Part shown: positions 1,530 to 53,776 of the stretch, piece by piece
Layout of the letters: each line of letters begins with the position of its first letter
Position numbering within the stretch: position 1 is the first letter of the stretch
Assembly: GCF_004138485.1 (NCBI RefSeq)
Contig: NZ_ML142848.1
Location: 62,001 to 126,000, forward strand
DNA from: Peristeroidobacter soli
GTDB taxonomy: Bacteria > Pseudomonadota > Gammaproteobacteria > Steroidobacterales > Steroidobacteraceae
DNA length: 64,000 bases
Direction: 5' to 3'
Program-made: the position numbers and the translations under genes
Notes under the pieces: model-generated
What the model saw: only the letters and a program-made list of their open reading frames with translations
Told to the model about the DNA's origin: nothing
Databases searched by the model: none

Positions 1530-1537
1530 CAAAGCTC

Positions 1538-2542
1538 ATGCGTGTGATCGCACGACTATTCGTTTTCGCCGCGGCGGCACTCATCACCGGTTGCTCGTCA
1601 CAAAAACCGCTGCTCATCGCTTCTCAAGGAAGCATTGCCGTCGGCGGAAAGATCGTGGGCGACCCCGGGAAGGCGTCGCTCCATTGCGATCACGGTGTCG
1701 CTGAATATCAGATTCCTCCTCGAGCCCGCGCGGTGAATCTGTTGATGTGGCACAGCGCCAGTGCCGTCGCCTGGCAACGACGATGGGATGGTGGCGAAGG
1801 CTTCCAGAGCATCTTCGTGAGGCGTGGCTACCCCGTCTATCTTTGGGACGGGCCACGCGTCGGCCGCGCCAACTGGGGCTGCGCCGAAACCACGTACACG
1901 CCGCGCGCGCGGGCCGATCAGCAGAACTTCGTCGCGTGGCGCTTCGGCCTCACCTATCCGAGCTGGTTCGAAAATGTGCAGTTCCCGAAAAACGATTCCG
2001 AAGCCTGGAATCAGGCCATGCGCGCCCGCTACGATGAATTCGACACCGTCGCGAACGCGCAGCTGGAAAGCGATGCCGCTGCGGCACTGGCGGATCGTAT
2101 CGGGCCCACAGTTGCACTCACGAATTCGGCGGGCGGCTTGCGTGCTCTGCTCACGGCACTCAAGAGTGACAACATCAAAGGCATCGTGGCGTACGAGAAC
2201 GTGGGCTGGGTCTACCCGCAGGGCGAAGGGCCCGACGTGCCCGAGGGACCGTTTGGTCCGGTCGAAGTGTCGCTCGAGGAATTTCGCAAGCTCACGCGCT
2301 TTCCGATACAAGTCGTCTGGGGCGACAACATCGAGCAATCCGCCGTCTATCAGGCGCGACTGGCGGAATCACGCCGCTTCGTCGACATCGTCAACAAGCA
2401 CGGCGGCCAGGCCGAAGTGCTGGTGTTGCCCGAGGCCGGGCTCGATGGCAACACGCATCTGCCGTTCGCCGATCTGAACAACGTCGCCGTCGCCGATCTG
2501 CTCTCGACGTTTCTTGCTGATCACGGCCTCGACCGGCGGTGA
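1538..2542 (+). CDS. Lipoprotein alpha/beta hydrolase
   Basis: A 334-residue protein with a lipoprotein signal ending in the lipobox ITGC (Cys19), so it should be anchored in the periplasm or outer membrane. The nucleophile elbow is NSAGG at 196-200 (Ser197). Asp263 in WGDN and His307 in GNTHLPF are plausible acid and base residues of a Ser-Asp-His triad. Such hydrolases cleave esters, lactones or polyesters; the substrate is unknown. It lies between two MFS transporters, overlaps the next start by 3 bases (GTGA), and probably processes a compound that one of them moves. The family assignment rests on the elbow and the spacing of the triad. Confidence 0.75.
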   Translation: MRVIARLFVFAAAALITGCSSQKPLLIASQGSIAVGGKIVGDPGKASLHCDHGVAEYQIPPRARAVNLLMWHSASAVAWQRRWDGGEGFQSIFVRRGYPVYLWDGPRVGRANWGCAETTYTPRARADQQNFVAWRFGLTYPSWFENVQFPKNDSEAWNQAMRARYDEFDTVANAQLESDAAAALADRIGPTVALTNSAGGLRALLTALKSDNIKGIVAYENVGWVYPQGEGPDVPEGPFGPVEVSLEEFRKLTRFPIQVVWGDNIEQSAVYQARLAESRRFVDIVNKHGGQAEVLVLPEAGLDGNTHLPFADLNNVAVADLLSTFLADHGLDRR

Positions 2543-3897
2543 CCCCTCACACCCTCTACCCAGACGGCCTGCCCTCGCCGCGCCGTTACTGGTCCATGGC
2601 GACCACCATGATGGTGATCGCGATATGCGTCCTGGACAGCACCATCGTCAGTGTGGCTCTGCCGTCGATCGCGCGAGACCTCGACACGAGTGCGGCGACG
2701 TCCATCTGGATCATCAACAGCTATCAGATCGCGATTCTGATCGCGCTCATCCCGCTCGCGTCGCTGGGAGAGATCATCGGTTATCGACGGGTTTCCCAGG
2801 CAGGCCTGATCATCTTCACGATCGCCTCACTCGCGTGCACACTCGCGCACACGCTGCTAGAGCTGACGATTGCCCGCGCCGTACAAGGCCTCGGCGCCGC
2901 TGGCATCATGAGTGTGAACGCCGCTCTGGTTCGATTCACCTATCCCGCGAACACGCTGGGCCGCGCTACCGGCATCAACGCGATGGTGGCTGCCGTGGCT
3001 GCGGCAGCTGGCCCGACAGCGGGCGCGGCCGTGCTGGCGATTGCGGACTGGCGATGGTTGTTCGCCATCAACGTTCCCATCGGCATCGTCGCGGCGGCAA
3101 TCGCGCAGTTTTCGTTGCCCTACACCGAACGCGCGCACCGTTCATTGGATTACGTGAGTGTGATACTGCACGTCGCAACGTTCGGTTTGCTCATCGCAGG
3201 GCTGCAATCGCTCATACACGAGAACGCGCGGCCCGGCGCCGCACTTCAGATCGGCGCAGCGTGCATGTTTGGCATGCTGCTGATTCGCCGTGAGATCCAC
3301 AGGCCCGCCCCGCTCGTGCCTTTTGACTTGATGCGCCTGCCGATCTTCTCTCTGTCGCTCGCCATCAGCATGTGCTCGTTTTTCGCGCAGATGGCAGCAT
3401 TCGTCGCGCTTCCCTTCGAGATTCAGCGACTGGGCCGCAGCGTCGTGGAAACGGGGTTGCTCATGACGCCGTGGCCGGTCGCCGTCGCGTTCGCGGCGCC
3501 TGTCGCCGGGCGACTTGCGGATCGTCATTCCTCAGCGATCCTCAGTGGCTTCGGGCTCATTGCGCTCTCGGCTGGACTCGTGTTGCTCGCGCTATTCCCG
3601 GAGCATGGCACCGCATGGGATCTCATGTGGCGCATGGCACTGTGCGGACTGGGTTTCGGCTTCTTTCAGGCGCCCAACAACCGCACGATGATGTCATCGG
3701 CTCCCCGCTCGCGCAGCGGCGCCGCCGCTGGAATGCTGAGCACGGTGCGCTCGCTCGGGCACGCCAGTGGCGCTGCCATCGTGGCCCTGCTATTCAGCAC
3801 TCATCTGGAAGGCGGCACGAAGATCGCCCTGACTACTGCCGCAGCCATGGCAGCGATCGCCGCGTTGCTCAGCTTTTTGAGGTTGCGCCGCCATTAG
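2539..3897 (+). CDS. MFS transporter, DHA2 (EmrB/QacA-like) family
   Basis: A 452-residue polytopic inner-membrane protein. The N-terminal region carries LDSTIVSVALP, the first-helix motif of the 14-helix drug:H+ antiporters (EmrB/QacA). The next loop motif is LGEIIGYRR. It would export toxic organic compounds using the proton gradient. The chosen start is the GTG at 2539, overlapping the TGA of the hydrolase gene (2540-2542), which indicates translational coupling. An internal ATG (2596) would lose only the cytosolic lead-in. Its stop overlaps the convergent ABC exporter by 4 bases. Confidence 0.85.
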   Translation: MTPHTLYPDGLPSPRRYWSMATTMMVIAICVLDSTIVSVALPSIARDLDTSAATSIWIINSYQIAILIALIPLASLGEIIGYRRVSQAGLIIFTIASLACTLAHTLLELTIARAVQGLGAAGIMSVNAALVRFTYPANTLGRATGINAMVAAVAAAAGPTAGAAVLAIADWRWLFAINVPIGIVAAAIAQFSLPYTERAHRSLDYVSVILHVATFGLLIAGLQSLIHENARPGAALQIGAACMFGMLLIRREIHRPAPLVPFDLMRLPIFSLSLAISMCSFFAQMAAFVALPFEIQRLGRSVVETGLLMTPWPVAVAFAAPVAGRLADRHSSAILSGFGLIALSAGLVLLALFPEHGTAWDLMWRMALCGLGFGFFQAPNNRTMMSSAPRSRSGAAAGMLSTVRSLGHASGAAIVALLFSTHLEGGTKIALTTAAAMAAIAALLSFLRLRRH

Positions 3898-5675
3898 ACC
3901 GGCAAGGGCTCGCCGACGCCAAGATCCGCGCGATTCCCGCTTTGAATGGAGTGCAAGCGCGCGTACAGCCCATCGGCATGATTCACCAGGGTTGCATGCG
4001 TGCCTCGTTGAACGATGCGCCCACCCTCCAGGACCAGAATCAGATCCGCGCTCATCACCGTGCTCAGTCGATGCGCGATGACCACGGCAGTTCGTCCGCT
4101 CATCAGGCGTTGCAGCCCCGCCTGGACCAGATGCTCGGATCGGGAATCGAGCGCACTGGTGGCCTCATCCAATATGATCAGCTCGGGTTTCTTGAGCGTG
4201 GCGCGTGCGATGGCGATACGTTGCTTCTCGCCACCGGAGAGCTTGATGCCGCGCTCGCCGACCAATGTTTGATATTGCTCGGGCAAGGCGTCGATGAATT
4301 CATCCGCGTGCGCCGCGCGAGCGGCGGCAGCTATCTCCTCCGGCGTCGAGCTCGGTCGCGCGAAGGCGATGTTCTCCTCGATGGAATCGTTGAACAGTGC
4401 CACGTCCTGAAGCACGACGCCGAGACGCGCGCGGACCGACTGCTGACGATACCTGCTCAGATCCACGCCGTTGACCAGAATGCGGCCCGAGCTGGGATCG
4501 TAGAACCGCAACAGCAGTTTGATGATGGTGGTCTTGCCCGCCCCGCTCAGGCCCACCAGTGCCAGCGTCTGTCCTCGATGCAGCTTGAACGAAACATCGG
4601 CGAGCACGACGCGTGCCTGTTCGCCATAGGCAAAGCTGACGCGATCGAATTCGAGCGTTTCGATCTCGTCCAGGTCGATGGCGTCGGGCGCATCCAGAAT
4701 CTCCGCGTCCGCGTCGATGAGCTCCATCAGACGCTCGGCATTGGTTTCGATATCGCCGGTCTGATTGATCAGGCGGGTCAACGGTTGCACGCTGTTGATC
4801 AGGTTCTGCGAGAGCATCAGCACCAGCAGAATGTCGCCTGGGGTGAAGCGTCCACCCAACGCGCCACGCGTGACCCATACAACCGCGAGGATGATGGCGA
4901 TGGTCTGCACTGCGTTGATCAGGGTGTTGTGCTTCCACTGCTCCATGTGCATCTTGCCGCGTACGCCTCGCCACTCAGCTTGAGTCGAGTCATAGCGCTG
5001 CTTCACCGCCGGTTCTCCGCCGAAGCTGCGCACCGTCGCAATGCTCGAGACCATTTCCGCCAGCAGGCCCGACAGTCGCCCCGCCAGCCGTTGCCATCCG
5101 CGCCGATACGGCGTCGTCACTTTGAAAGACCGCATCGACACCGTCACACTGACCAGCAGCACGCCGATCATCAATGCGGCGACAGGCGGCGCCTTCACCG
5201 CCAGCACGGCGACAATCACCAGCATCTGCATGACGTTGGCCAGATTCTGCTCGATCAAAGTTCGCAGCCACATCGTGACCTGCGTGATGCCGTTGAAGCG
5301 ATCCATGATCTCGCCGACCCGGGTACGCTCGTAGTAGTCGATAGACAGGCGGGTCATGTTGTCGAACACCCGCTGACGCAGTCCGCCGACCATGTCGATC
5401 CACAGATCGTCGGACTGCTTCTCCTGCACGAAGTTGAAGATCAGGACCGCGACGCGTAGCACGACGAACAGAGCGATCATCGTCGTAACCGAGCCGCCCG
5501 CCTGCGCGGCACTCACATCGTCGCCGAGCAGTCGCGCAATGACGTCGACGATGTGCTTGTAGATATAAGGAGTGCCCGCCCCGATCGCTCCCAGCACCAG
5601 ACTCACGGCCAGCACGGCAAGCGTGCGGCCGCGATACTCGGGAATCAGCCTGATGACCCGCCAGATCTTCGACAT
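3894..5675 (-). CDS. ABC exporter, fused permease-ATPase (MsbA-like half transporter)
   Basis: A 593-residue half transporter. Residues 1-310 hold six membrane helices of the type-I exporter fold. The nucleotide domain follows with Walker A GLSGAGKT (375-382), a Q-loop at Gln423, the LSGGE signature (479-483), Walker B LIILDE (499-504) and an AHRLST switch histidine. It would act as a homodimer exporting a lipid, peptide or drug. It is the last gene of the minus-strand TonB receptor/DszB/Yej operon, 18 bases after the DszB-like gene. Export of a reaction product or toxic intermediate is a reasonable inference. The Shine-Dalgarno is weak (AAGAA). Confidence 0.85.
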   Translation of the reverse strand: MSKIWRVIRLIPEYRGRTLAVLAVSLVLGAIGAGTPYIYKHIVDVIARLLGDDVSAAQAGGSVTTMIALFVVLRVAVLIFNFVQEKQSDDLWIDMVGGLRQRVFDNMTRLSIDYYERTRVGEIMDRFNGITQVTMWLRTLIEQNLANVMQMLVIVAVLAVKAPPVAALMIGVLLVSVTVSMRSFKVTTPYRRGWQRLAGRLSGLLAEMVSSIATVRSFGGEPAVKQRYDSTQAEWRGVRGKMHMEQWKHNTLINAVQTIAIILAVVWVTRGALGGRFTPGDILLVLMLSQNLINSVQPLTRLINQTGDIETNAERLMELIDADAEILDAPDAIDLDEIETLEFDRVSFAYGEQARVVLADVSFKLHRGQTLALVGLSGAGKTTIIKLLLRFYDPSSGRILVNGVDLSRYRQQSVRARLGVVLQDVALFNDSIEENIAFARPSSTPEEIAAAARAAHADEFIDALPEQYQTLVGERGIKLSGGEKQRIAIARATLKKPELIILDEATSALDSRSEHLVQAGLQRLMSGRTAVVIAHRLSTVMSADLILVLEGGRIVQRGTHATLVNHADGLYARLHSIQSGNRADLGVGEPLPV

Positions 5676-5693
5676 GAAGCAAATTCTTGTTGG

Positions 5694-6722
5694 TTATTTG
5701 GTGAGCGCCGCCAGCGGCCGCGGATCGATCCAGTTGCGCACATCGAAATCCTGCGCCAGAAAGCCCCACTGCAACAGGAAGTTCTTGTAGCCCTCGAGCG
5801 CCACGATGGAGGACTCGGCCAGATCGGTGACCTGACGCAAATGCAGATCGGCGCCGTACGCCCGCCGCACATCGGCCTCTCGCGAACCCGTTTCGCGAGC
5901 CACATACGCAACCGTCTCGCCTGGATGCGCGACTGCCCACGCTCCCACATCCACGATGCGTTTCAAGAAGCGAGTGACGATGTCCGGTCGGGTCTGCAAC
6001 AGATGCAAGTCCACTGTGACGGGGCGCGGCGCCCCATTGTTTGCCCGCACGCGCGGGTCCGGATGATTGCGAACGTCGAAGACCACGTGTGCCTTCAGCT
6101 GCTCGGTCACTTCGATACCCCGCGAGCCCTTGACGAAGATCGCATCGACACGCTTTTCGAGGAGTGCTTCGACTTCCTTGCCATAGGCGGCACGCTGGCC
6201 ACCCGTGAACGCGGGCGCCCGCGGAGAGTCGCTGTAGTCGGCATCGATGAATTCGACTTCCTTCGGGTCGATACCCGCGAGCTGCAACGTGACCACGACG
6301 CCACGCAGTGCCGAGGCGCGACTGTGGTCGATCGAGTTGTGATGACGAGGCAATGCCACCCGGCGCCCGCGCAAATCCGCCGGCGCCTGGATGCCCGAGC
6401 CAGGCAACGTCAGGATGCCTTGATACTCATCGACCCAGTTCAGTCCGATCACGCGTGTCTCACGGCCCTTCGCTCGCGCCCAGATCGGCGGCACATTGCC
6501 GCCCTGGCGAAACGAATTGTGCAGATGATGATCGTAGTGCGACTCGCGCACTGTCGCGTCTTCGGTTTCCTGCAGAGTGCTGATCTGAATACCGTCGGCG
6601 GCGAACTCCTCGTTGAACCAACCCAACTGCGCGGCCAATCCGAGCGGAGTCGGCACCGGGCATCGGGTATACCAGAGCTGTCGCAGCTCGGCGTCGGCAA
6701 GGTCATCGGGTTGAGCTGACAT
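5694..6722 (-). CDS. DszB-like enzyme 1 (2'-hydroxybiphenyl-2-sulfinate desulfinase family)
   Basis: A 342-residue soluble protein with no signal peptide. The N-terminal part reads WYTRCPVP with Cys21, then SHYDHH with His62, then RQGGNVPP with Arg72. Rhodococcus DszB has YSNCPVP (Cys27), His60 and RFGGEIPP (Arg70), with the same 10-residue His-to-Arg spacing. The rest follows the periplasmic-binding-protein type II fold that DszB also has, so generic annotation would call it a nitrate/sulfonate-binding protein. The missing signal peptide and conserved triad favour a cytosolic C-S cleaving enzyme. It overlaps the yejA-like gene by 20 bases and has AGGAG 7 bases before the ATG. The substrate is unknown. 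Confidence 0.7.
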   Translation of the reverse strand: MSAQPDDLADAELRQLWYTRCPVPTPLGLAAQLGWFNEEFAADGIQISTLQETEDATVRESHYDHHLHNSFRQGGNVPPIWARAKGRETRVIGLNWVDEYQGILTLPGSGIQAPADLRGRRVALPRHHNSIDHSRASALRGVVVTLQLAGIDPKEVEFIDADYSDSPRAPAFTGGQRAAYGKEVEALLEKRVDAIFVKGSRGIEVTEQLKAHVVFDVRNHPDPRVRANNGAPRPVTVDLHLLQTRPDIVTRFLKRIVDVGAWAVAHPGETVAYVARETGSREADVRRAYGADLHLRQVTDLAESSIVALEGYKNFLLQWGFLAQDFDVRNWIDPRPLAALTK

Positions 6723-8535
6723 GAATGATCTCCTGGGAGGGCGAAGCCGGCTTGCGCCACCACTGACTCAAGACCCAGTCATAGGGAGCGTAGTAATCCG
6801 GCAATTGTTCGGCGAAGGCCAGAGCGGTGTTGTAAGCAACGCGATGCTCGAACGAATAGCGCTCCGGCACCACGTAGTAGCCATGCATGAGGACACGATC
6901 CAGCGCACGAGCCACCGTTTTCAATTCATCGGCGGAATGCGCGAGCGAGAGCTTGTCGATCAGCGCATCGATCACGGGCGACTTGACGCCGATGGTGTTC
7001 TCCGAGCCGGGCACGTCGGCGTCGGCACTGTTGAGCTTGGCACGCAGGTCGCTACCCGGCACCCGCGACTCCCGGAACACGATCATCGCCATGTCGTAAT
7101 CGAAGTTCTGCATGGCCTTGCGTTGCGCGACCTGATCGCCGAGCCGGCGTTTGACGATGATTCCGTAGCGCCCGATGTTCCTCAGATAAGTCTCGATACG
7201 TGGCAGGGGAATGCCCTCGCTCAAGCTGGCTTCGAGCACGAACGGCTCGCCCTTGGCATTGCGCAGGGCGCCGTCACGATAGGTCCAGCCCGCCTCCGCG
7301 AGCAAACGCTGACCTTTGATGAGCTTGTCACGCAGCGACGTGGGTGCAACCTGTGCGGAGTTTGGCACCATGGGACCGAACACCGCGGGATCGAGCTGAT
7401 CGCGCCACGGCTCGAGCAGCTTCAATTCCTGTGCCGAGGGCTCGCCGGTCGCGGCCAGCTCGCTGTTGGAGAAATAGCTGTACGGATGTTTGTACTCGCC
7501 ATAAAAGATGTTCTTGTTGATCCAGTCGAAATCCAGTGCCAGCGCCAGTGCCTGGCGCACGCGCACGTCCTGGAAGCGCTCGCGACGCAAGTTGAAGATG
7601 TAGCCGTTCATGCCTGGCACGTTGGTGTGCGGGAACAGCCGCTTGGTGAGCTCGCCGGCGGCGAAGCGTCCGCCCGTGTACACGCAACACCAGTTGCGTG
7701 CCTTGCCCTCCACCATGACGTCGAACTCGCCGGCTTTGAACGCTTCGACTTGCAGGTCATAGTCGCGAAACAGCTTGTAGCTGACGACGTCAAAGTTGAA
7801 CGCGCCCCGCCGCACCGGCAAGTCGGCCGCCCAATAGTTCGGGTTGCGTCGATAACGGATGCCACCGCGCACATAGTCGGCCTGCTCGACCACGTAGGGA
7901 CCGCTCGCGATCGGCGCATCAGTCTGTACATCGGCGAACGGCTTGCCCTGGCCCCAGCGAGGCGAGAACACCGGCAGTGTGCCGGCGACGAACGCCTGTT
8001 CATGGCTGGCGCGCTTGAACTCGAAGCGGACCGTCATGTCGTCCACCAGCACGGCTCGTTCGATGCCGGCGAAGTACAGCCGGAAACGGGGCGCGGCACT
8101 CTTGCCCGTCAGCGTATCGAACGAATATTTCACGTCGGCCGCGGTGACCCGGTCGCCATTCGAGAAGCGCGCGGCCGGATTCACGTGGAAGGTCGCTGCG
8201 CGCAAGTCAGATGCCACGGCGATGTCATCGGCGATCAATCCATACTGCGTGGTCGCCTCGTCCATGCTGTAGACCGCGAGCGTCTCGAACACCAGCTCGA
8301 TCAATCCTGGCGCCGCCTTGCCTCGCAGAGTGTACGGGTTGAGCTTTTCGAAGTTGGTCGCTTCATAGGACGTTGACAAGCGCAGCGTGCCGCCCTTGGG
8401 CGCGTCCGGATCGGCGTATTCGAAGTGTTGGAAACCCGCCGGATATTTCGGCTCGCCGTACAGCGCAATGGCATGCGCCGCTTCAGCCCCCGGTGCCAGC
8501 AGCGCCAGCATGAAGATCAGAGTAAACCGGCTCAT
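6703..8535 (-). CDS. yejA: ABC transporter substrate-binding protein, family 5 (YejA-like)
   Basis: A 610-residue SBP_bac_5 protein with a typical signal peptide (about residues 1-20). The mature start, ALYGEPKYP followed by DPDAPKGG, is characteristic of YejA of the microcin C/oligopeptide importer. It would bind a peptide-like or other medium-sized solute in the periplasm and deliver it to YejB/YejE. The start overlaps the yejF stop as ATGA. Its 3' end overlaps the DszB-like gene 1 by 20 bases, so import and the DszB-like protein are translationally coupled. The solute may differ from E. coli YejA substrates, given the unusual neighbours. Confidence 0.85.
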   Translation of the reverse strand: MSRFTLIFMLALLAPGAEAAHAIALYGEPKYPAGFQHFEYADPDAPKGGTLRLSTSYEATNFEKLNPYTLRGKAAPGLIELVFETLAVYSMDEATTQYGLIADDIAVASDLRAATFHVNPAARFSNGDRVTAADVKYSFDTLTGKSAAPRFRLYFAGIERAVLVDDMTVRFEFKRASHEQAFVAGTLPVFSPRWGQGKPFADVQTDAPIASGPYVVEQADYVRGGIRYRRNPNYWAADLPVRRGAFNFDVVSYKLFRDYDLQVEAFKAGEFDVMVEGKARNWCCVYTGGRFAAGELTKRLFPHTNVPGMNGYIFNLRRERFQDVRVRQALALALDFDWINKNIFYGEYKHPYSYFSNSELAATGEPSAQELKLLEPWRDQLDPAVFGPMVPNSAQVAPTSLRDKLIKGQRLLAEAGWTYRDGALRNAKGEPFVLEASLSEGIPLPRIETYLRNIGRYGIIVKRRLGDQVAQRKAMQNFDYDMAMIVFRESRVPGSDLRAKLNSADADVPGSENTIGVKSPVIDALIDKLSLAHSADELKTVARALDRVLMHGYYVVPERYSFEHRVAYNTALAFAEQLPDYYAPYDWVLSQWWRKPASPSQEIIHVSSTR

Positions 8536-10109
8536 TGGGCCGCTCTCAGCAGACTTTGGGTGTAGGTGTGACGCGGCGAGCCCAGGAGCTGCTGTGTCTC
8601 ACCCGTCTCGACGACCTTGCCATCCTTCATCACCAGCAGGTGATGCGACATCGCATTCGCAACGGCGATGTCGTGCGTGATCAGGATGTAGCTCAACTGA
8701 TATCGGCGCTGCAGACGGGTCAGCAAGGCCAGCACCTGGCGTTGAATGGAAACGTCGAGCGCCGAGGTAGGTTCGTCCAGCACCACGATGAGCGGCTTCA
8801 ACACCACCGCGCGCGCGATCGCAATCCTTTGTCGCTGGCCGCCCGAGAATTCGTGCGGATAACGCGACAGCGCCGACTCCGGCAACCCGACTTCGCCCAG
8901 CACTTCGATCAGCGCCGCCCGCCGCTGCGCCGCTGTCAGTTCGGGCCGATGCAACTCCAGCCCCTCGCCGATGATCTGCTCGACCGTCATGCGTGGCGAC
9001 AACGAACCAAAGGGATCTTGAAACACGACTTGCAGTTGGCCGCGCATCGCACGCCAGGCATTGCTGGCGTACTTCACTCCCCGACCGTCATATTCGACCG
9101 TGCCGGCCGCGGGCCTCACCAACCCGAGCACCGCCAGCGCGAGCGTGGATTTTCCCGAGCCTGATTCGCCGAGCACGCCCAGCGTTTCGCCCCGCCGAAG
9201 TTGAAAGTCGACACCGTCGACGGCGGCGAGCGTATTGCGCCTGAATCGCTCACGCCAGCCACCGCGCCGATGTTTGAATTCGACGCGCAGGCCGGAAGCC
9301 TTAAGCACGGTGGGTTCGGAGGCTTCGACCGGCGTGACCGCGCGAACCGGCTGACTGTCCATCAGACGGCGCGTGTACGGATGTTTCGGCGCTTCGAACA
9401 GCTGCTCGGTCGGCGCCACTTCCACCAGCACGCCCTGCTCCATCACGGCGACGCGCTGAGCGAACTTTCTCACCAGGTGCAGATCATGCGTAATCAACAG
9501 CACCGCGAGCCCGTCGCGCTGCTGCAGCTTCAACAGCAACTCCACGATCCTGGCGCGAATGGTCACATCCAGCGCCGTCGTCGGCTCGTCGGCGATCAGC
9601 AGTCTGGGCTTGCACGCCAACGCCATCGCGATCATCGCGCGCTGCCGCTGGCCACCAGACAACTGATGAGGATAGCTGTCGACGCGACGCGCGGGATCAG
9701 CGACGCCGGTGGATTCCAACAGTGAAATGGCCGCCTCGCGCGCCCGTCTCGCACTCAGGCCCTCATGGAGCACGAGCGTTTCGATGATCTGCTTGCCGAT
9801 GGTGAGCACCGGATTGAGCGCCGACATCGGTTCCTGAAAAATCATGGAAATGTCCCGGCCACGGAGGGTCCGGATCTGCTCATCGTCATAGCGAGACAGA
9901 TCCTCGCCTTGAAAGCGGATGGCGCCACTGATGCTGGCCTCCTCCAGGAGGCGCAACACCGACAGTGCGGTGACGGTTTTTCCGGAGCCCGACTCACCGA
10001 CCAGCGCGACACGCTCCCCCGCCTGCACGGCCAGAGACAAATCGCGCACGGCAACGGTATCGCCGAAGCGAACCGACAGTTTTTCCAGCTCGAGCAGCGG
10101 CGCCGTCAT
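8532..10109 (-). CDS. yejF: Double ABC ATPase of oligopeptide-type importer (YejF-like)
   Basis: A 525-residue protein with two ATPase domains in one chain, as in YejF. The first has Walker A GESGSGKT (38-45), signature LSGGQRQR (150-157) and Walker B ending ADEPT (173-177). The second has GESGSGKS (314-321), FSGGQRQR (421-428) and VVLDEPT. Between them lies the C-terminal PYTRRL element typical of the OppD/DppD class. It powers the YejB/YejE permease on the cytosolic face. Both ends overlap the neighbouring genes by 4 bases (ATGA), so the stoichiometric yejE-yejF-yejA order is kept. Confidence 0.9.
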
Positions 10110-11221
10110 GATGCCGCCGCAGCGCTGTCGCGCACGCGTGTATCGAGCGCGGTGCGCAGCGCCTCACCGATGAATGTGAGCAGCAACAACGTGATCACCA
10201 GCACGAAGAACGTCGGCACCGAGATCCACCAGGCATATAGATAAGTTTTGCCCTGCGCGAGCAGCTCGCCCAGGCTGGGCGTCGGCGGTGGCACGCCGAG
10301 ACCGAGAAAGTCCAGGCTCGTGAGCGCCATGATGGCGGCGCTCATGCGGAACGGCAGGAAAGTGATCACGGGAGTGAGACTGTTCGGCAGGACGTGCCGC
10401 CAGATGATCTGCAAGTTCGTCAGCCCCATGGCACGCGCCGCGGTTACATACTCGAGCTGCCGATTGCGCAGAAACTCCGCGCGCACGTAGTCCGATAGCG
10501 AAATCCAGCCAAACGCGGACAACAGCACGAACACCAGCAACAGGCTCGGTTCGAAGAACGAGGCAAAGATGATCAGCAGATACAGCTCCGGCAGCGCGCC
10601 CCAGATCTCGATCAGGCGCTGCGTGACCAGATCCACCCGCCCGCCGAAATAGCCTTGCAGAGCGCCGAGCGCCACACCGATCAGCACTCCCGACACCGTC
10701 AGTGCCAGACCGAACAACACCGACAGTCGAAACGCGTAGAACAAACGGGCCGCCACGTCGCGACCGATGATGTCCGTGCCCAGCCAGTTGCTGGCGGAAG
10801 GCGGCGCGGGATGCGGCGTCTCGGGGAAATAGTTCATCGCCTTGTAGCCCCAGCGATTGAACGTGAACAACGCGAAGTTGCCCGGTGCCGTCAGCTGCTG
10901 TTGCACGAAGGGATCGTGATAGTCGGCTTCGGTGAGCAGTTCTCCGCCCAGATCCGCCTCCGACAGGGTCTGCACGATCGGCACATACCAATGCCCGTCG
11001 TAGCGAGCCAGCAGTGGCTTGTCGTTCGAGAGCAGCTCCGCCAGCAGGCTGATGGCCAGCATCGAGGCCAGGATCAACAGGCTGTAATAACCGAGGCGCT
11101 GACGTTTGAAACGCTCCCACACCCGCCGGCCGGGTGAAACGGATTCCACCACGGTCGGCCTCGTCGCCTCGGCGACCGGCGGCACCAGAGAGAGGCCCAC
11201 ATCATCCGGCAGAGTACTCAC
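10106..11221 (-). CDS. yejE: ABC importer permease (YejE-like)
   Basis: A 371-residue inner-membrane permease of the DppC/YejE class. One N-terminal membrane segment is followed by a long periplasmic stretch containing DGHWYVPI and FNRWGYKAMNYFPETPHP, as expected for YejE. Five more helices and the EAA-type cytosolic loop (ARAMGLTNLQIIWRHVLPN) contact the ATPase. The GTG at 11221 is chosen because it lies 1 base after the yejB stop (TGACGTG). A longer frame upstream would run into yejB. It pairs with the YejB-like permease to form the channel. Confidence 0.88.
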   Translation of the reverse strand: MSTLPDDVGLSLVPPVAEATRPTVVESVSPGRRVWERFKRQRLGYYSLLILASMLAISLLAELLSNDKPLLARYDGHWYVPIVQTLSEADLGGELLTEADYHDPFVQQQLTAPGNFALFTFNRWGYKAMNYFPETPHPAPPSASNWLGTDIIGRDVAARLFYAFRLSVLFGLALTVSGVLIGVALGALQGYFGGRVDLVTQRLIEIWGALPELYLLIIFASFFEPSLLLVFVLLSAFGWISLSDYVRAEFLRNRQLEYVTAARAMGLTNLQIIWRHVLPNSLTPVITFLPFRMSAAIMALTSLDFLGLGVPPPTPSLGELLAQGKTYLYAWWISVPTFFVLVITLLLLTFIGEALRTALDTRVRDSAAAAS

Positions 11222-11222
11222 G

Positions 11223-12272
11223 TCAGCTCCGGTGCGAATCGAACTTGATGCGCGGATCGGCCAGCACATACGCGAGATCGCCGATCAGCTTGGTGAACAG
11301 CCCGAGCAACGTGAATAGAAACAGCGTGCCGATGACCACCGGATAATCCCGCCGACGCACCGATTCGAACGACAGCAGACCGAGCCCGTCGAGCGAGAAC
11401 AGCGTCTCGATCAACAGACTGCCTGTGAAGAACGCGGCGATGAAGGTTGCGGGAAAGCCCGTGACCAGCGGCAGCAACGCGTTACGAAACACGTGTCGCC
11501 ACAACACACTGCGTTCCGACAGTCCCTTGGCCCGGGCGGTGAGCACGTACTGACGCCGGATCTGTTCGAGCACCGCATGCTTGGTCAGCATCGTCTTCAC
11601 CGCGAACTGACTGACGACCGTAGCGGTGACGGGCAAAGCGATATGCCAGAGATAGTCGAGCACCTTTCCGGTCGCGCTCAGCTGTTCCCAGTTCTCCGAG
11701 GTGAGCCCTCGCAAGGGAAACACCGTCCAGTAAGTCCCGCCGCCGAACAACACCAGCAACAGCACGCCCAGCACGAAGCCCGGAATCGCATAGCCAGTCA
11801 TCACCAGCACGCTGCTGACCAGGTCGAAGCGCGTGCCGGCGCGGACGGCCTTGGCAATGCCCAGCGGCACCGAGATCAAGTACGTGAGCATGAAAGTCCA
11901 CAGTCCGAGCGACAGCGACACCGGCAGCTTGGATTTGATCAACGACCAGACACTTTCGTGCGTGAAGTAGCTTTCGCCCAGATCGAAACGCGCGAAGCGG
12001 CTGATCATGAGCCAGTAGCGTTCGAGCACGGGCTTGTCGAAGCCGTACATTTCTCGAAGCTGCTGCAACTGGCTGTCGTCGACCCGGCCGCCCGCGCTGT
12101 AGTTCAAACCGCCACCGCCGCTGGCCTCGGCGCCGGTGTCGGTGCCCTGCGCTTCGTTCAACACATGCTCGATCGGTCCGCCGGGCACGAACTGAGTGAT
12201 GATGAACGTCAACGTCACCACGCCGAACAGAGTCGGCAGCATGACGAGCAGGCGTTTGAGGAAGTAGAGCAC
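11223..12272 (-). CDS. yejB: ABC importer permease (YejB-like)
   Basis: A 349-residue DppB/YejB-type permease starting LYFLKRLLVMLPTLFG, followed by FVPGGPIEHVL, both family hallmarks. The cytosolic loop reads ARAKGLSERSVLWRHVFRNALLP. I chose the GTG at 12272, whose first base is the last base of the TAG stop of the DszB-like gene 2 (overlap of 1 base), because the extra upstream codons are polar and antisense-like. It forms the inner-membrane pore together with YejE. Its tight coupling to a DszB-like gene is the point of interest. Confidence 0.88.
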   Translation of the reverse strand: MLYFLKRLLVMLPTLFGVVTLTFIITQFVPGGPIEHVLNEAQGTDTGAEASGGGGLNYSAGGRVDDSQLQQLREMYGFDKPVLERYWLMISRFARFDLGESYFTHESVWSLIKSKLPVSLSLGLWTFMLTYLISVPLGIAKAVRAGTRFDLVSSVLVMTGYAIPGFVLGVLLLVLFGGGTYWTVFPLRGLTSENWEQLSATGKVLDYLWHIALPVTATVVSQFAVKTMLTKHAVLEQIRRQYVLTARAKGLSERSVLWRHVFRNALLPLVTGFPATFIAAFFTGSLLIETLFSLDGLGLLSFESVRRRDYPVVIGTLFLFTLLGLFTKLIGDLAYVLADPRIKFDSHRS

Positions 12273-13354
12273 TACTTCCCCTGCTCGAGCAGCTTGCGCG
12301 CGTTCTCGAGCGGGCGACGATCGGTCCACTCCTCGAGATCGAAATCGCGTTCCAGGAAACCGTGCAACAGCAGGAAGTCGATCTGCTTGCGGAACAGCGC
12401 CAGCCGTTCCGGCGACAGATCGGGATGCAGCGACTTGTGGAAGTCATTGCGATAGGCGGCGGCCACACCATCCGCGCTCCCCCGCGTCTCACTTTGCAGC
12501 ACCTCACGCACGCCAGCTTCGTTGTTTACCGCCCAGTCGGCCGCGCGCAGGCTTTGCGCGATGAAACGACTCACCAGATCGAGATGGTCGTTGAGGAAAT
12601 CCTCGTGCACAGTGATGGGCCGCGGCGTACCGTTGTTCACGCGGAAACGACGATCAGGCAACGTGTCCAGGTCGATGGCGACCACGACGCCGAGCCGCTT
12701 CGCTGCATCCACTGCGGAAGCGCCCTTCACATAGACGGCATCGACCCGTCCCTGCACCAGATCGTTGAGTCCCCACCAAAGGTTCTGCAGCGCTTGAGCG
12801 TTGGCGGGAGCGGCGCCTGATTCGATCCGGCGTGCCTCCACTTCGACGAAAGTCACATCGTCAAAGCTCAGTCCGGCATACGCCAGCGCGCCTCGCACAC
12901 CGGCGAGCGTCATGCCGCGACCGATGCTGCTGCCGCGGATGTGACTCGGAATCCGATGCTCGATGAAACTGGGGAGCGCGATCCTGCGGCCCTTCAGATC
13001 CTTCGGCTCGCGGATGCCGGAATCGGGCCGCGCGATGATGGCCTGGCCTTCATCGATCCAGGTCAGACCGATCAAGCGAGTCTTCGCCCCCTGCGCACGA
13101 GCCGCGATCGACAGCATGTTGCCGCCTTCGCGGATCAGCGTGTTCAGCTCGTGATCGTAGTGATGCCGGGACAGATCGCTGTTGCGCGCGTCCTCCTGCA
13201 GCGTCGACAGCGGAATGCCGTCGCGGGCGAACTCCTCCGTGAGCCAACCGAGCTTGTACGCCAGACCCGTCGCCGTCGGCACCGGGCAGCGTGTGAACCA
13301 GATGCGATCGACGGCGGGCGTATTGGACGGCTTCAATGCAGCGTTGCTGGACAT
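12272..13354 (-). CDS. DszB-like enzyme 2 (desulfinase family)
   Basis: A 360-residue soluble protein without a signal peptide. The triad residues align to DszB: Cys23 in WFTRCPVPT, His65 in HHYDHEL and Arg75 in REGGN, with the 10-residue His-to-Arg spacing kept. A long block RVNNGTPRPITVH is shared nearly unchanged with DszB-like 3, and in related form with DszB-like 1. This copy is closer to 3 than to 1. It lies 34 bases downstream of a TonB receptor gene and overlaps yejB by 1 base. A Shine-Dalgarno AAGGATC precedes the ATG. Activity on an imported sulfinate is inferred; a role as an intracellular binding protein cannot be excluded. Confidence 0.7.
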   Translation of the reverse strand: MSSNAALKPSNTPAVDRIWFTRCPVPTATGLAYKLGWLTEEFARDGIPLSTLQEDARNSDLSRHHYDHELNTLIREGGNMLSIAARAQGAKTRLIGLTWIDEGQAIIARPDSGIREPKDLKGRRIALPSFIEHRIPSHIRGSSIGRGMTLAGVRGALAYAGLSFDDVTFVEVEARRIESGAAPANAQALQNLWWGLNDLVQGRVDAVYVKGASAVDAAKRLGVVVAIDLDTLPDRRFRVNNGTPRPITVHEDFLNDHLDLVSRFIAQSLRAADWAVNNEAGVREVLQSETRGSADGVAAAYRNDFHKSLHPDLSPERLALFRKQIDFLLLHGFLERDFDLEEWTDRRPLENARKLLEQGK

Positions 13355-13388
13355 GATTGATCCTTTGATGAGTGAGTGAGCTCGAGTT

Positions 13389-15593
13389 TCAGTACTTGAC
13401 GGTGACAGCGACGCCGTAGGTACGCGGCGGACCGTTCGAGTACGAACCCGTGATCAGCGAGGTGTTGCGATAAATCTTGTCGGTCACGTTCAGCGCATAG
13501 GCGCGGAACTCGTAGTTGCCGGCCGGCGACTGATAGCCCGCCGACACGTTACCCAGCGTGTACGCCGGCTCGATCAGCGCCCGGCTGGTCTGATCGGTGG
13601 CATTGAAGTACGACTTGGTGCGATACGCCCAATCGGTATCCAGCGCCAGATGACCGCCGTTGGAGAGCGGCAGCTTGTACCCGAGCTGCAGATTGCTGAT
13701 CACCCGAGGCACCCGGTTGAACCAGTTGCCGCGCGCGTTGCTGGTCGGCGAATCCTGGAAATCGGTGAACTCGGTGTTGTTGTAGCCAAGGTTCAGACGG
13801 ACGTTGAGATTGGTGATGGGGACGACCGCCAGCTCCACTTCCGCGCCCTTGGAGACGCCGCTCCTGGCGTTGATGAACGTCAGCACCTGCTGGTTGTTGG
13901 CGTCGAGCGTGGTCGCCTTCTGCTGGATGTCGGTGTAGTCGTAATAGAACGTCGCGACGTTCAGCACCACGCGGCTGTCCCACCACTCGCTCTTCAAGCC
14001 GAGCTCGTAGGCCTTGAGATATTCGGGCTCGATCACCGTCACCTGATTCTGGCGCGTCGCGCCGGCGTTGAAACTGCCGCCGTTGAAACCTTTCGAATGG
14101 CGGAAGTAGACGCGCAGGTTGTCATTGATTGCGTAGCCCGGAGTGATTTCGTAGGTGAAGGCGTTCCAGGTCTTCTGCTGATTCTGAACCGCGTCGTTGC
14201 GCAGCGGACGGTTGACGATCAGCTCCGGCACCCACCACTGATTCAGATCGCCGAACGCAAAGCCGGTGACGCCGGTCTGGTTGAGCAGATCGACCCGCTT
14301 GGTCTCCGAGGTTTGCCGCACACCCAGGCCAAGATCGAACTTCTCGGTGAAGTGATAGGTCGCGTTCGCAAACGCCGCGTAGCTCTCCGCCTCCAGCGTG
14401 TATGCGTTGATGGTGTAGCTGATCGGTTTTGCCGCGCCCGCGGCGGTAAGCGAGCCCGGCAGCGCCGCGCTTTCGCTGTCGGCGACCAGCTTGCCGTTGA
14501 AGTAGTGCGCGCCCAGGATCCAGGTCAAGCGTTCATCGGCGCGCGACGTAAGCCGAAACTCCTGACTGAACTGATCCACTTCGAACGCCGTGTGCGTGCG
14601 GGTCGATTCGTAGGGTACGGCATCGCCACCCAGCTGCTCGCGCTCGAAGTTTTCGTATCCCGAGATGGACGCGAGCGTCCAGCCGTTGGCGAATTGCTTG
14701 TTCAAGGTCACCGTGGCACCACGCTGCTGCAGATCGTCTTCGCGATCGGCGAGCGAGGGAACGTTGAAGCGCGTCTGCTCCCGATTGTTGTAATTGCCGC
14801 TGGTCAGCACCGGACCGCTGAAATCGCGGTAGTGCAGGTTCACGACCCCGTCGAACGTATCGGAGAACTGCGTGAGCAGTTGGAAGCGGACACCCGCGTC
14901 GCTCCAGCTGTCGGTGCCGGGCAGGAAGCTGTTCTGGGTATAGAGATCGGCCTCGTTGTACTGGCCCGACAGGCGCGCCGCGAACACGCCGTCCTTGAGC
15001 CCGCCGCCGATGGCGCCTTCGATCAGCTTCTCGTTGTAGTCGCCGTAGGCCACCTTCAGATAGCCATCCGGATCGAAGCTGGGCTTGCGGGAAATGAAAT
15101 TGATCGCGCCGCCCGTGGTGTTCTTGCCCCACAGCGTGCCCTGCGGACCGCGCAGCACTTCCACCCGCTCCAGATCGAACAAGGGAAAGCCCACCGTGGA
15201 AGCATTCCAGATATATACGTCATCGACATACGTGCCGATCGGATTGGTGTTCCAGATGGATGCATCCGACAGACCGATGCCGCGAATGTAGAACTTCGGT
15301 CGTCCGTGGCCGTCGGTGGTATCCGCGGTCATGTTCGGCACGAAGCGGATCACGTCGCCGGCATTGCGCACTTCTGAATTGGCGACGGTCTCGCCGCTGA
15401 TCACGCTGACCGCCGATGCGATCTCCTGCACGTTCTGTTCGCGGCGCTCGGCGGTCACGACGACCGTTTCGACCGCGTCGCCGCCGGCGACATTCTCGGC
15501 AGCGGCGGTGGTTACCGCGGCGAACGTCAGAGACAAATAGCTCAAGGCCAGCGGAGCACGCACGCTCCACTGTGCCATTTCACGGGAAAACAT
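13389..15593 (-). CDS. TonB-dependent receptor, first gene of the DszB/Yej operon
   Basis: A 734-residue outer-membrane receptor. The N-terminal signal peptide is followed by a TonB-box-like ETVVVTAERREQ, a plug domain containing YIRGIG, and VEVLRGPQGTLWGKNTTGG, then a 22-strand barrel ending in the aromatic-terminated VAVTVKY. The ATG at 15593 is preferred because GAGG lies 7 bases upstream and the signal peptide starts there. It would bring the operon's substrate across the outer membrane. Divergent from it lies DszB-like gene 3. This receptor class (pesticin/iron-dicitrate-like plug) does not reveal the ligand. Confidence 0.88.
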   Translation of the reverse strand: MFSREMAQWSVRAPLALSYLSLTFAAVTTAAAENVAGGDAVETVVVTAERREQNVQEIASAVSVISGETVANSEVRNAGDVIRFVPNMTADTTDGHGRPKFYIRGIGLSDASIWNTNPIGTYVDDVYIWNASTVGFPLFDLERVEVLRGPQGTLWGKNTTGGAINFISRKPSFDPDGYLKVAYGDYNEKLIEGAIGGGLKDGVFAARLSGQYNEADLYTQNSFLPGTDSWSDAGVRFQLLTQFSDTFDGVVNLHYRDFSGPVLTSGNYNNREQTRFNVPSLADREDDLQQRGATVTLNKQFANGWTLASISGYENFEREQLGGDAVPYESTRTHTAFEVDQFSQEFRLTSRADERLTWILGAHYFNGKLVADSESAALPGSLTAAGAAKPISYTINAYTLEAESYAAFANATYHFTEKFDLGLGVRQTSETKRVDLLNQTGVTGFAFGDLNQWWVPELIVNRPLRNDAVQNQQKTWNAFTYEITPGYAINDNLRVYFRHSKGFNGGSFNAGATRQNQVTVIEPEYLKAYELGLKSEWWDSRVVLNVATFYYDYTDIQQKATTLDANNQQVLTFINARSGVSKGAEVELAVVPITNLNVRLNLGYNNTEFTDFQDSPTSNARGNWFNRVPRVISNLQLGYKLPLSNGGHLALDTDWAYRTKSYFNATDQTSRALIEPAYTLGNVSAGYQSPAGNYEFRAYALNVTDKIYRNTSLITGSYSNGPPRTYGVAVTVKY

Positions 15594-15885
15594 GGGAAAC
15601 CTCAGGTGAGGCGCATGACTGCGCTGTTCGAATCTTGATTGCAGTCTACGAAGCACCGGTCACCGGCGCTGTTATGCCGCGGTTACGGATGAGTCACAAC
15701 TTCACTCTGTCAGCGACGCAGAGCGGCCATTCCGTGCGGAAAATCGTGCACGCCGCGAAGTAACGATGCTTACAAACGTTGTGGTTACAACACATGAGCT
15801 CATAACGAGTCGATCTGAAGGCCGCGCTTCCCGACCGGCACTATCCTGCGCACATCGGTCGACTCATCAACGTCAGGAACCTCGC
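15594..15885. promoter_or_regulatory. Divergent intergenic region between TonB receptor and DszB-like gene 3
   Basis: This 292-base gap must hold promoters for both directions. Two small dyads are visible: TTCCGTGCGGAA (15730-15741) and GTTGT-GGTT-ACAAC (15778-15791). A local AT-rich patch (TAACGATGCTTACAAACGTT) lies around 15762-15780. No consensus -35/-10 pair stands out on either strand. A single regulator controlling both operons from this gap is plausible, but no regulator gene is adjacent. Confidence 0.45.
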
Positions 15886-16953
15886 GTGAGCAACGTCAAC
15901 TCCAAAGTCGAAACCCTCTGGTTCACTCGCTGCGCGGGCGGCGGTCGCGGCGGCGTGCCCACCGCCTCGGGCATCGCATACAAGCTGGGCTACCTGGAAC
16001 AGGAGTTCAGAGCCGACGGCATTCAGTTGCGCACTCTGCAGGAGGATGCCGGCCCGGAATTGTTACATCATCATTACGAGCATGGTCTGCCCACGCTGAT
16101 CCGCGAAGGCGGCAACCTGTTTGCCATTCCCGCCAAGGCCCAAGGCGCTCAGACCCGTCTGATCGGTTTGACCTGGATCGATGAAGCGCAGTCCATTCTC
16201 GTGCGACCCGACTCGGACATCCGCTCGCCGGTCCAACTCAAAGGCAAGCGCCTCGGCGTGCCCGCCTTCCGCGCCAACGATATCGAGGAGAATCGCCGCG
16301 GCCGGAGCATCAATCGGCTGGGCGCTCTGCATGGTTACAAAGGGGCGCTGGCGGCGGCCGGCCTGACGCTCGACGATGTCGAGCTGGTTGAAATCCCCTG
16401 GGACCAGGCCAGAGATGCCGATGCCTTCGGCGGCTGGCGCCAGGGCTTTCAACCGTTGCTCGACGGCAGCATCGATGGCTTCTATGTGAAAGGCGCCGCG
16501 GCTCAGGATGGCGCACGCGTCTTCGGCCTGGAGGTCGGCATCGATCTGGATCGCCTGCCCGAGCGCCGCTTCCGTGTGAACAACGGCACGCCGCGGCCCA
16601 TCACCGTGCACCAGGACTTCCTGGACAATCATTTCGACTTGCTGGTTCGTTTCCTGCACCAGACGCTGCGCGCCGCCGAGTGGGCCAAGAACAATCTCGC
16701 CGGCGTGAGTGAGATTCTCCAGAGCGAGACCGGTGCGACCGCCAGCGGCGTGGCTGCCGCGTATCGCAATGGCTTTCATCTGTCGCTCGCTCCGGATCTT
16801 TCCGCAGAGCGCCTCGCACTGTTCCGTCAGCAGAAGAATTTTTTGTTCACGTACGGCGTGCTGGATCGCGACTTCGATTTCGATGCCTGGATCGATCCGC
16901 GGCCGCTGGATGAAGCCTTGCGACGGCTGCATTCGACCAAGGCCGCGGCCTGA
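15886..16953 (+). CDS. DszB-like enzyme 3 (desulfinase family) with a Gly-rich insert beside the catalytic Cys
   Basis: A 355-residue soluble protein without a signal peptide, starting at GTG 15886 (AGGAA 6 bases upstream); longer upstream frames lack a plausible start context. Triad positions are Cys16 (WFTRC), His63 (HHHYEH) and Arg73 (REGGN). Its body is very close to DszB-like 2 (shared FRVNNGTPRPITVH, SGVAAAYRNGFH, RLALFRQQ). Between Cys16 and VPT it has AGGGRGG where the other two copies have a single Pro, a six-residue insertion next to the presumed nucleophile. It is transcribed divergently from the receptor operon and ends in a stem-loop shared with the convergent response regulator. 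Confidence 0.7.
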   Translation: MSNVNSKVETLWFTRCAGGGRGGVPTASGIAYKLGYLEQEFRADGIQLRTLQEDAGPELLHHHYEHGLPTLIREGGNLFAIPAKAQGAQTRLIGLTWIDEAQSILVRPDSDIRSPVQLKGKRLGVPAFRANDIEENRRGRSINRLGALHGYKGALAAAGLTLDDVELVEIPWDQARDADAFGGWRQGFQPLLDGSIDGFYVKGAAAQDGARVFGLEVGIDLDRLPERRFRVNNGTPRPITVHQDFLDNHFDLLVRFLHQTLRAAEWAKNNLAGVSEILQSETGATASGVAAAYRNGFHLSLAPDLSAERLALFRQQKNFLFTYGVLDRDFDFDAWIDPRPLDEALRRLHSTKAAA

Positions 16954-16960
16954 TCGCTCA

Positions 16961-16988
16961 CTGGTTCCGCTCAGAACGGCGGAACCAG
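16961..16988. terminator. Bidirectional stem-loop between convergent genes
   Basis: CTGGTTCCGC (16961-16970) pairs perfectly with GCGGAACCAG (16979-16988) around an 8-base loop. It begins 7 bases after the DszB-like gene 3 stop, and its right arm encodes the last residues of the convergent response regulator. There is no T-tract on either side, so intrinsic termination would be weak; a shared 3'-end stabilising hairpin is the alternative. Confidence 0.55.
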
Positions 16989-17615
16989 CCCCAACCGGAT
17001 GGCCGCCCGCAGCAGCTGTGTCCCGTTATCCGCGCCGAGCTTCTGCCGGATCGAAGACTGATGATTGGCGACGGTCTTCGGGTTCAGGCCCAGCTGCCGG
17101 GCGATCTCATTGAGAGCACAGCCGTCCGCGAGCAGCTTCAGCACCTCGAACTCCCGCGCCGAAAGAATCTCGTGGCTGCCTTGCTCGGTGCTCAGCGGCT
17201 GCAGCGCCAGCGTCTGCGCCACATCGGGACTGAGAAACCGGCGGCCGCCTGCGACGCTGGCCACCGCCTCCACCAGCACGCGAGGTGCGGCCGCTTTCGT
17301 CAGATAGCCAGCCGCGCCAGCTTCGAGCGCACGCCGGGCAAAGATGGCGTCCTCATACATGCTGAACATCAACACGCGTGCCTTGGGTTCATGCACCAGA
17401 ATCCGGCGGAGGGCTTCGATGCCGCTCACGCCCGGCAAGGCGATGTCCATGACGGCGACATCCGGCATCAAGCTGCAAAACATGTGATAGGCCTCGGTGG
17501 CGCTGGCGGCCTCGCCTACGACCGTGATGCCGCCGCTGACTTCCAGCAATCGCCGGTACCCCTCACGCACGACGGAGTGATCGTCCACCAGCAGCACCGT
17601 TGTTCGCGCACTCAT
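16971..17615 (-). CDS. Response regulator, NarL/LuxR family
   Basis: A 214-residue two-domain regulator. The receiver has LVDDHSVVREG (acidic pair Asp11-Asp12) and phospho-acceptor Asp57 in VMDIALPG, with the conserved Lys in YLTKAA. The C-terminal LuxR-type HTH (about 148-205) contains SAREFEVLKLLADG and NPKTVANHQSSIRQKL. It resembles UvrY/GacA-like regulators. It would activate or repress promoters on phosphorylation by an unlinked histidine kinase; no kinase gene is in the window. The ATG at 17615 has AGGAG 8 bases upstream. It is separated by 51 bases from the lipoprotein gene upstream. Confidence 0.88.
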   Translation of the reverse strand: MSARTTVLLVDDHSVVREGYRRLLEVSGGITVVGEAASATEAYHMFCSLMPDVAVMDIALPGVSGIEALRRILVHEPKARVLMFSMYEDAIFARRALEAGAAGYLTKAAAPRVLVEAVASVAGGRRFLSPDVAQTLALQPLSTEQGSHEILSAREFEVLKLLADGCALNEIARQLGLNPKTVANHQSSIRQKLGADNGTQLLRAAIRLGLVPPF

Positions 17616-26222: not shown

Positions 26223-26311
26223 CGCGGCTCCCCCCAGCAATGCCCGATTGCAAGCCATTCTGATCGGCTCATAATCGACGCTCAAGACGATGGCACGGAC
26301 TCTGACTATCT

Positions 26312-53763: not shown

Positions 53764-53776
53764 GCCCGATGATAGA

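Follow-up and report, generated by a model that had tools for sequence, protein, structure and literature searches.

A TonB receptor, Yej-type importer and DszB-like protein operon in Peristeroidobacter soli: a candidate module for organosulfur import and C-S cleavage

The window analysed here is a stretch of 64,000 nt from Peristeroidobacter soli (assembly GCF_004138485.1, contig NZ_ML142848.1, positions 62,001-126,000), and all positions below are window positions. Eight genes are packed on the minus strand in the order TonB-dependent receptor (TBDT), D2, yejB, yejE, yejF, yejA, D1, and exporter, and a ninth gene, D3, is divergent from them. D1, D2, and D3 encode proteins that resemble the desulfinase DszB. 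The genes are as follows.

3894..5675, minus strand: EXP, ABC exporter-type half transporter (Pfam ABC_membrane and ABC_tran)
5694..6722, minus strand: D1, DszB-like, subfamily A (Cys, His, and RxGG kept)
6703..8535, minus strand: yejA, family-5 solute-binding protein (Pfam SBP_bac_5; signal-peptide-like N-terminus)
8532..10109, minus strand: yejF, double ABC ATPase (best family, NCBIfam YejF)
10106..11221, minus strand: yejE, permease, likely GTG start at 11221 (best family, NCBIfam microcin C permease)
11223..12272, minus strand: yejB, permease, likely GTG start at 12272 (best family, NCBIfam YejB)
12272..13354, minus strand: D2, DszB-like, subfamily B (alone against the PDB, matches DszB 2de2 at E 8e-12; placed by trees)
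13389..15593, minus strand: TBDT (plug and barrel), likely ATG start at 15593, longest frame to 15656
15886..16953, plus strand: D3, DszB-like, subfamily B, divergent, likely GTG start at 15886, longest frame from 15766

By Pfam, D1, D2, and D3 are NMT1 proteins, YejB and YejE are BPD permeases, YejF is a double ABC ATPase, and YejA is an SBP_bac_5 protein; the TonB receptor and the ABC exporter are recognised as such. With the likely starts, TBDT and D2 are separated by 34 bases, D2 overlaps yejB by 1 base, and yejB and yejE are separated by 1 base. The overlaps that follow are 4 bases (yejE-yejF), 4 bases (yejF-yejA), and 20 bases (yejA-D1), and a gap of 18 bases precedes the exporter gene; 292 bases lie between the starts of TBDT and D3. 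The genes, strands, and spacings agree with those of the first-pass annotation, which was made from the window alone, wherever it gave figures. Third-position GC is 0.73-0.82 across all nine frames. The spacing suggests translational coupling and a single transcript. Pattern scans of the operon for promoter-like (including sigma-70), terminator-like, and sigma-54-like patterns gave no excess over the shuffled expectation. Matches to the D proteins were found in just 6 of 148 related genomes, including that of P. soli itself; in this lineage, the operon is thus accessory.

D1, D2, and D3 are 37-57% identical to one another, and a search of the 9.37 Mb genome of P. soli with D2 gave these three proteins as the only matches. 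We prepared a profile from 44 chosen D proteins (alignment A3) and searched it against the PDB. The profile matched the two DszB structures, 2de2 (E 2e-30) and 2de3 (E 2e-28), over nearly the full length (profile positions 13-348). The only other matches were two annexins, both weak and partial, and no SsuA-type binding protein was found at E 0.001. DszB is therefore the sole full-length match of the D family among solved structures, and the kinship that the first-pass annotation had proposed is borne out by this match and by the residues described below.

DszB is the 2'-hydroxybiphenyl-2-sulfinate desulfinase of the 4S pathway. It is a mechanistically unusual desulfinase without a cofactor requirement, and its Cys27, His60, and Arg70 (in the RxGG motif) have been discussed as active-site residues (PMC6100217). 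The D proteins of the window are similar in size to DszB, and each of them conserves all three residues. To extend the comparison, we aligned 162 of 192 BLAST hits to D1-D3 or DszB (those above 120 bits and 200 aa) together with DszB. Over the 163 rows, Cys27 is kept in 140, His60 in 147, and Arg70 in 162. The 23 rows lacking the Cys have Ser (12), Gly (6), Arg (3), or a gap (2); the two gap rows are frames cut at the end of a locus. By position, the 21 rows with Ser, Gly, or Arg are second or third D genes, and the matched D gene of each of these loci keeps Cys, His, and Arg. These changed paralogues (for example in loci L041, L031, L032, L046, L049, L060, L065, L077, L079, L013, and L027) are possibly dead or altered enzymes. 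The size of this sister family of DszB and the conservation of its catalytic residues are new here.

The relationship to DszB is nevertheless distant (the best pair in the 75-row tree described below is 32% identical). Several residues are near-invariant in the D family but not present in DszB, namely W99, E102, R146, K210, R238, P244, and R245 (D2 numbering), and the motif RxNNxxPR, which holds the last three, occurs in 151 of the 162 D rows. Therefore, the substrate of the D proteins, and even the reaction, may differ from those of DszB. Judging from hydropathy, the N-termini of D1, D2, and D3 are not signal-peptide-like, and that of DszB is likewise not. The three proteins are thus likely to be cytosolic, as had been supposed at first.

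To see what accompanies the D genes in other organisms, we took the best 80 of 236 genome-contig matches, which gave 77 loci. The loci were chosen by likeness to D2; subfamily B is therefore present in them by construction. Open reading frames were clustered, and the large clusters were named from one scanned representative apiece, with a few exceptions (among them the permease-like cluster 10 and the ExbD-like cluster 21). Clusters of LLM monooxygenases, with representatives of the SsuD, SfnG, NtaA, and DmoA types, occur in 61 of the 77 loci (a raw count, as are those that follow). Both D subfamilies are found together in 49 loci. Other recurrent neighbours are a sigma-54 regulator (48 loci), an SsuA-like protein (45), an ABC ATPase cluster (44), exporter-type ABC clusters (41), and an SfnB/DszC-like cluster (12); several of the loci end at contig ends. 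Many D relatives are thus located in loci of the SsuABCDE/SfnG/MsuDE kind, and the link to sulfur, because of the monooxygenase clusters in the relatives' loci, is stronger than the earlier annotation could show. The window differs from such loci in that its importer is of the Yej type and in that no SsuD-like enzyme was found in the genome.

Annotated plasmids show a like setting. The three D genes of the Sphingobium plasmid pTomTYG65a are surrounded by three ssuD-named genes, the genes of an ssu importer, and an arylsulfatase gene. A Sinorhizobium pSymA plasmid has two D genes together with genes for an NtaA/DmoA monooxygenase and a member of the acyl-CoA dehydrogenase family. Two loci that resemble the window closely are those of Duganella aquatilis (L011) and Herbaspirillum autotrophicum (L012). 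Their receptors are 62% and 64% identical to the TBDT of the window, and their D1 and D2 relatives are 65-68% identical. These two loci also contain an importer-type permease and ATPase, a 347-aa protein, and an exporter pair, and have no Yej genes. No LLM cluster was found in either stretch, and SsuD-like genes are present elsewhere in both genomes. Relatives of D3 with about 70% identity occur in L084 and L034, and copies of the exporter in L029 and L084 (60% and 63% identical). A class II aldolase-family cluster, absent from the operon of the window, was observed in 60 of the 77 loci, in several of them directly beside the subfamily-B gene.

The first-pass annotation had noted that DszA and DszC, the FMNH2 monooxygenases of the known pathway, are absent. 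None of the nine genes described here encodes an LLM monooxygenase or FMN reductase, and the absence of FMNH2 monooxygenases extends to the genome of P. soli as searched. Only two PF00296 matches were found there; judged by reading, one lies beside F420-type genes and the other is LuxAB-like. The SsuD model gave one match, at 26.6 bits. The SfnB model gave 21 matches, none of which passed (the best, 87.6 of 430.9 bits). Thus, the PF00296 and SfnB-model searches of this genome found no DszA or DszC partner for a 4S pathway, and an importer operon stands in their place. No SsuD-like monooxygenase was detected in P. soli, whereas five of the six other D-carrying genomes searched have them (SsuD-model matches: G153, 4; G154, 11; G155, 5; G156, 7; G149, 15). 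The sixth is G008, which belongs to the genus of P. soli; it has one D gene and a single SsuD-model match, of 42 bits. A genome with three D enzymes in which no SsuD-like partner is found is new here. Since no such partner was found, either the compound is already oxidised when it arrives, or another oxygenase acts, or the reaction is a different one. The genome has seven TauD-family matches, and genes of the sulfite/nitrite reductase type (NIR_SIR) are present. About 8 kb beyond D3, the window contains a VanA-type Rieske oxygenase gene with a divergent LysR regulator gene (25176-27301); it is conceivable that this oxygenase is a partner of the D enzymes.

The importer has all four subunits of YejABEF, including a double-domain YejF, and Yej models are the best families for B, E, and F. 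The scores are below the NCBIfam cut-offs (YejF, 616 bits against 834; YejE, 364 against 439 for the microcin C permease; YejB, 422.9 against 445). Relatives of YejB at E 1e-100 or better were found in 67 of 369 genomes of the class, including P. soli, and the others are 49-67% identical. We looked for D genes in 20 of the 66 other genomes, one of them comparatively distant and the rest among the closest. No match was found in 19 of them, and one had a fragment of 19.8 bits. In these 20 loci, yejA comes first in 16, and no yejA was found nearby in the other four.

The order yejB-E-F-A was found in the window and in G148, G150, G151, and G152, which are metagenome-assembled genomes named after methanotrophs, all with D genes. 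The concatenated Yej proteins of these five form one clade (support 100/100). When we searched 301 genomes from the order to which G150 belongs, a further such locus was found in G580, where a D1 relative (63% identical) lies about 490 bases upstream of yejBEFA. The same search gave G545 and G564, in which yejA comes first and D2-like genes had no match. In a larger Yej tree, constructed without the YejA relative of G008, the six D-linked loci form one clade (SH-aLRT 100), and G545 and G564 are the next branch (91).

Within this clade, D genes and yejBEFA are on one short stretch in three of the five relatives (G148, G150, and G580). In G150, D1 (63% identical) is 10 bases upstream of yejB, and two SsuD-like monooxygenase genes are divergent from D1. 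The same contig encodes an MsuE/SsuE-type FMN reductase which, like the two SsuD-like enzymes, scores below the NCBIfam cut-offs; two NtaA-type monooxygenases over the cut-off, beside a D3-type pair; an exporter (60% identical); and a TolC-type protein. On the 13 kb contig of G148, yejB is preceded by three D genes, of which two are complete and one is partial, and by an exporter pair. G148 is named after an alphaproteobacterial family; mis-binning is therefore possible. The yej contigs of G151 and G152 are short, and no D gene was found on them; the D genes of these two genomes lie on other contigs. The yej contig of G151 includes a partial copy of the exporter (57% identical).

The D-linked Yej clade thus comprises the window and five D-carrying genomes, and 22 compared genomes with other YejABEF genes have no convincing D gene. 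The tie between the D family and this rearranged clade is new here. The order receptor-DszB-yejBEFA-DszB, proposed at first as that of a system to be sought in other genomes, was not supported as a conserved arrangement, as the full order was seen only in the window among the loci examined. The recurring elements are the D-linked yejBEFA clade and the combination of a similar receptor, ABC genes, D1, and D2 that L011 and L012 share without Yej genes. Conserved neighbours without DszB-like genes, which the first-pass annotation had counted against a system, exist in part, since close YejABEF genes occur in D-less genomes. Close Yej genes were accordingly rejected as a marker of the system: 19 of the 20 YejB genomes are D-less, and so are G545 and G564. 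As a separate observation, a locus in G008 (L113, contig C223) has a YejA relative (48% identical) next to receptor-like frames, a monooxygenase of the NtaA/DmoA type, and a nitroreductase-type protein of the malonic semialdehyde reductase family; yejB, yejE, and yejF had no match in 13 kb of this locus.

We propose, with a probability of about 0.55, that the operon is a module for organosulfur import and C-S cleavage that is fed by an already oxidised, sulfinate-like compound. The TBDT would take up an organosulfur compound whose size or scarcity makes porins inadequate, YejA would bind it in the periplasm, and YejBEF would import it. In the cytosol, D1-D3 would use DszB-type chemistry, with Cys, His, and Arg, to cleave a C-S bond of a sulfinate-like group; the sulfite set free would be assimilated, and the exporter would probably expel the desulfurised remainder. 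The gene set and order, the homology to DszB, the catalytic residues, the nature of the N-termini, the sulfur-gene neighbours of relatives, the D-linked Yej clade, the lack of an SsuD-like match of note in the genome, and the sulfite/nitrite-reductase-type genes are seen in the sequences; the substrate, the directions of transport, C-S cleavage, sulfite release, and the role of the exporter are inferred. The parts of the operon are of known kinds, akin to those of sulfonate/sulfone scavenging loci. We recognised no description of the D family or of a desulfinase-linked Yej importer in the open-licence literature searched. If the D family desulfinates, cofactor-free C-S cleavage would be greatly widened, to proteins that are often annotated as transport proteins, and the Yej clade that accompanies the family would point to a sulfur substrate for an importer of the peptide type.

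Several points weigh against a sulfur module. Most of the related loci pair D genes with monooxygenases that are lacking in the genome of P. soli, and the D genes are off the yej contig in G151 and G152. Further such points are the rows without the Cys, the near-invariant residues not shared with DszB, and the lack of any regulatory site in the scans, and the receptor scores lean weakly to siderophore receptors. YejABEF is otherwise an importer of peptides or muropeptides: long peptides are bound by the E. coli YejA, whose pocket is very large (PMC10924461), and the YejBEF importer of Agrobacterium, with YepA, takes muropeptides (PMC9790009). The large pocket and the uptake of muropeptides make a peptide-linked or bulky substrate plausible. 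A more specific form of the proposal is that TonB and Yej import a large, possibly peptide-borne, sulfinate-like compound, and that the sisters of DszB, with a more polar pocket of their own, cut its C-S bond without any cellular FMNH2 monooxygenase; we regard this oxygenase-free route as tentative and rather unlikely.

The alternative that survives best is that the operon imports a peptide- or metallophore-type compound, which the D proteins modify by another reaction, for example decarboxylation, with the sulfur context as a remnant. Other enzymes of this fold are decarboxylases. The best PDB match of YejA, which has a hydrophobic N-terminus, is MbnE, followed by YejA proteins, and methanobactin uptake follows the same logic of a receptor and a Yej-type importer; it differs from the window in that the operon here contains D enzymes. 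The best NCBIfam model for the TBDT is a siderophore receptor, a weak match of 157.5 bits against a cut-off of 223.5. The lack of an SsuD-like enzyme in the genome and the family-specific residues of the D proteins would also fit. However, relatives of D1 and D2 sit in sulfonate/sulfone-type loci, the TBDT is 62-64% identical to the receptors of L011 and L012, loci that hold relatives of both, and the Cys, His, and RxGG of DszB are retained. We therefore consider this alternative possible but doubtful.

The sole Pfam match of the D proteins is NMT1, and this match, with the loss of the Cys in some members, would suit non-catalytic proteins that descend from SsuA-type binding proteins and bind a ligand, or regulate, in the cytosol. 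Most members, however, keep the Cys, His, and Arg; among 62 SsuA-like proteins of cluster 4, the Cys motif occurs in none and RxGG in two; and at the threshold used, the PDB search with the D profile gave DszB but no protein of the SsuA type. A non-catalytic role is thus improbable. A first tree of 75 rows (D genes of 27 of the 77 loci, the window, DszB, rows from plasmids and methanotrophs, and four SsuA-like proteins) and a second tree of 72 rows, from which three rows with a changed Cys were removed, separated the D proteins, at a support of 100, from the four SsuA-like proteins, which come from the same loci. Subfamily B, with D2 and D3, is one clade (100/99); subfamily A, with D1, is not firmly monophyletic, and DszB is on a very long branch. 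A strongly hydrophobic N-terminus was found in 1 of 137 D proteins and in 30 of 56 SsuA-like proteins encoded in those loci. That D1-D3 are ordinary periplasmic sulfonate-binding proteins serving the importer, as database names (many plasmid relatives are called ABC transporter substrate-binding proteins) and SsuA_fam matches of 49-77 bits (cut-off 163.5) would have it, is very improbable, since the N-termini and the tree position speak against a plain SsuA-type protein and the Yej importer already has its own binding protein.

Many Pseudomonadota carry members of the D family, as do a few Actinomycetota and Vulcanimicrobiota. D-family genes were seen on 90 plasmid records (49 from Sinorhizobium and 22 from Rhizobium), of which 60 are predicted to be conjugative. 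In a proteome study of P. putida under chromate, a sulfonate-binding-like protein was induced (PMC2996968).

Other genes lie around the operon. On the plus strand, positions 180-3897 encode an aromatic-acid/H+ symporter-like MFS protein, a lipoprotein-like protein (by eye, without a Pfam match), and a DHA2-like MFS protein, the gene for which is convergent with the ABC exporter gene and overlaps it by 4 bases. A LuxR-type response regulator gene (16971-17615, minus strand) is convergent with D3. Further away, a gene for a tryptophan halogenase-family protein (52219-53796, minus strand) overlaps the end of a large upstream frame (53777-56965), which is TonB-receptor-like by eye.
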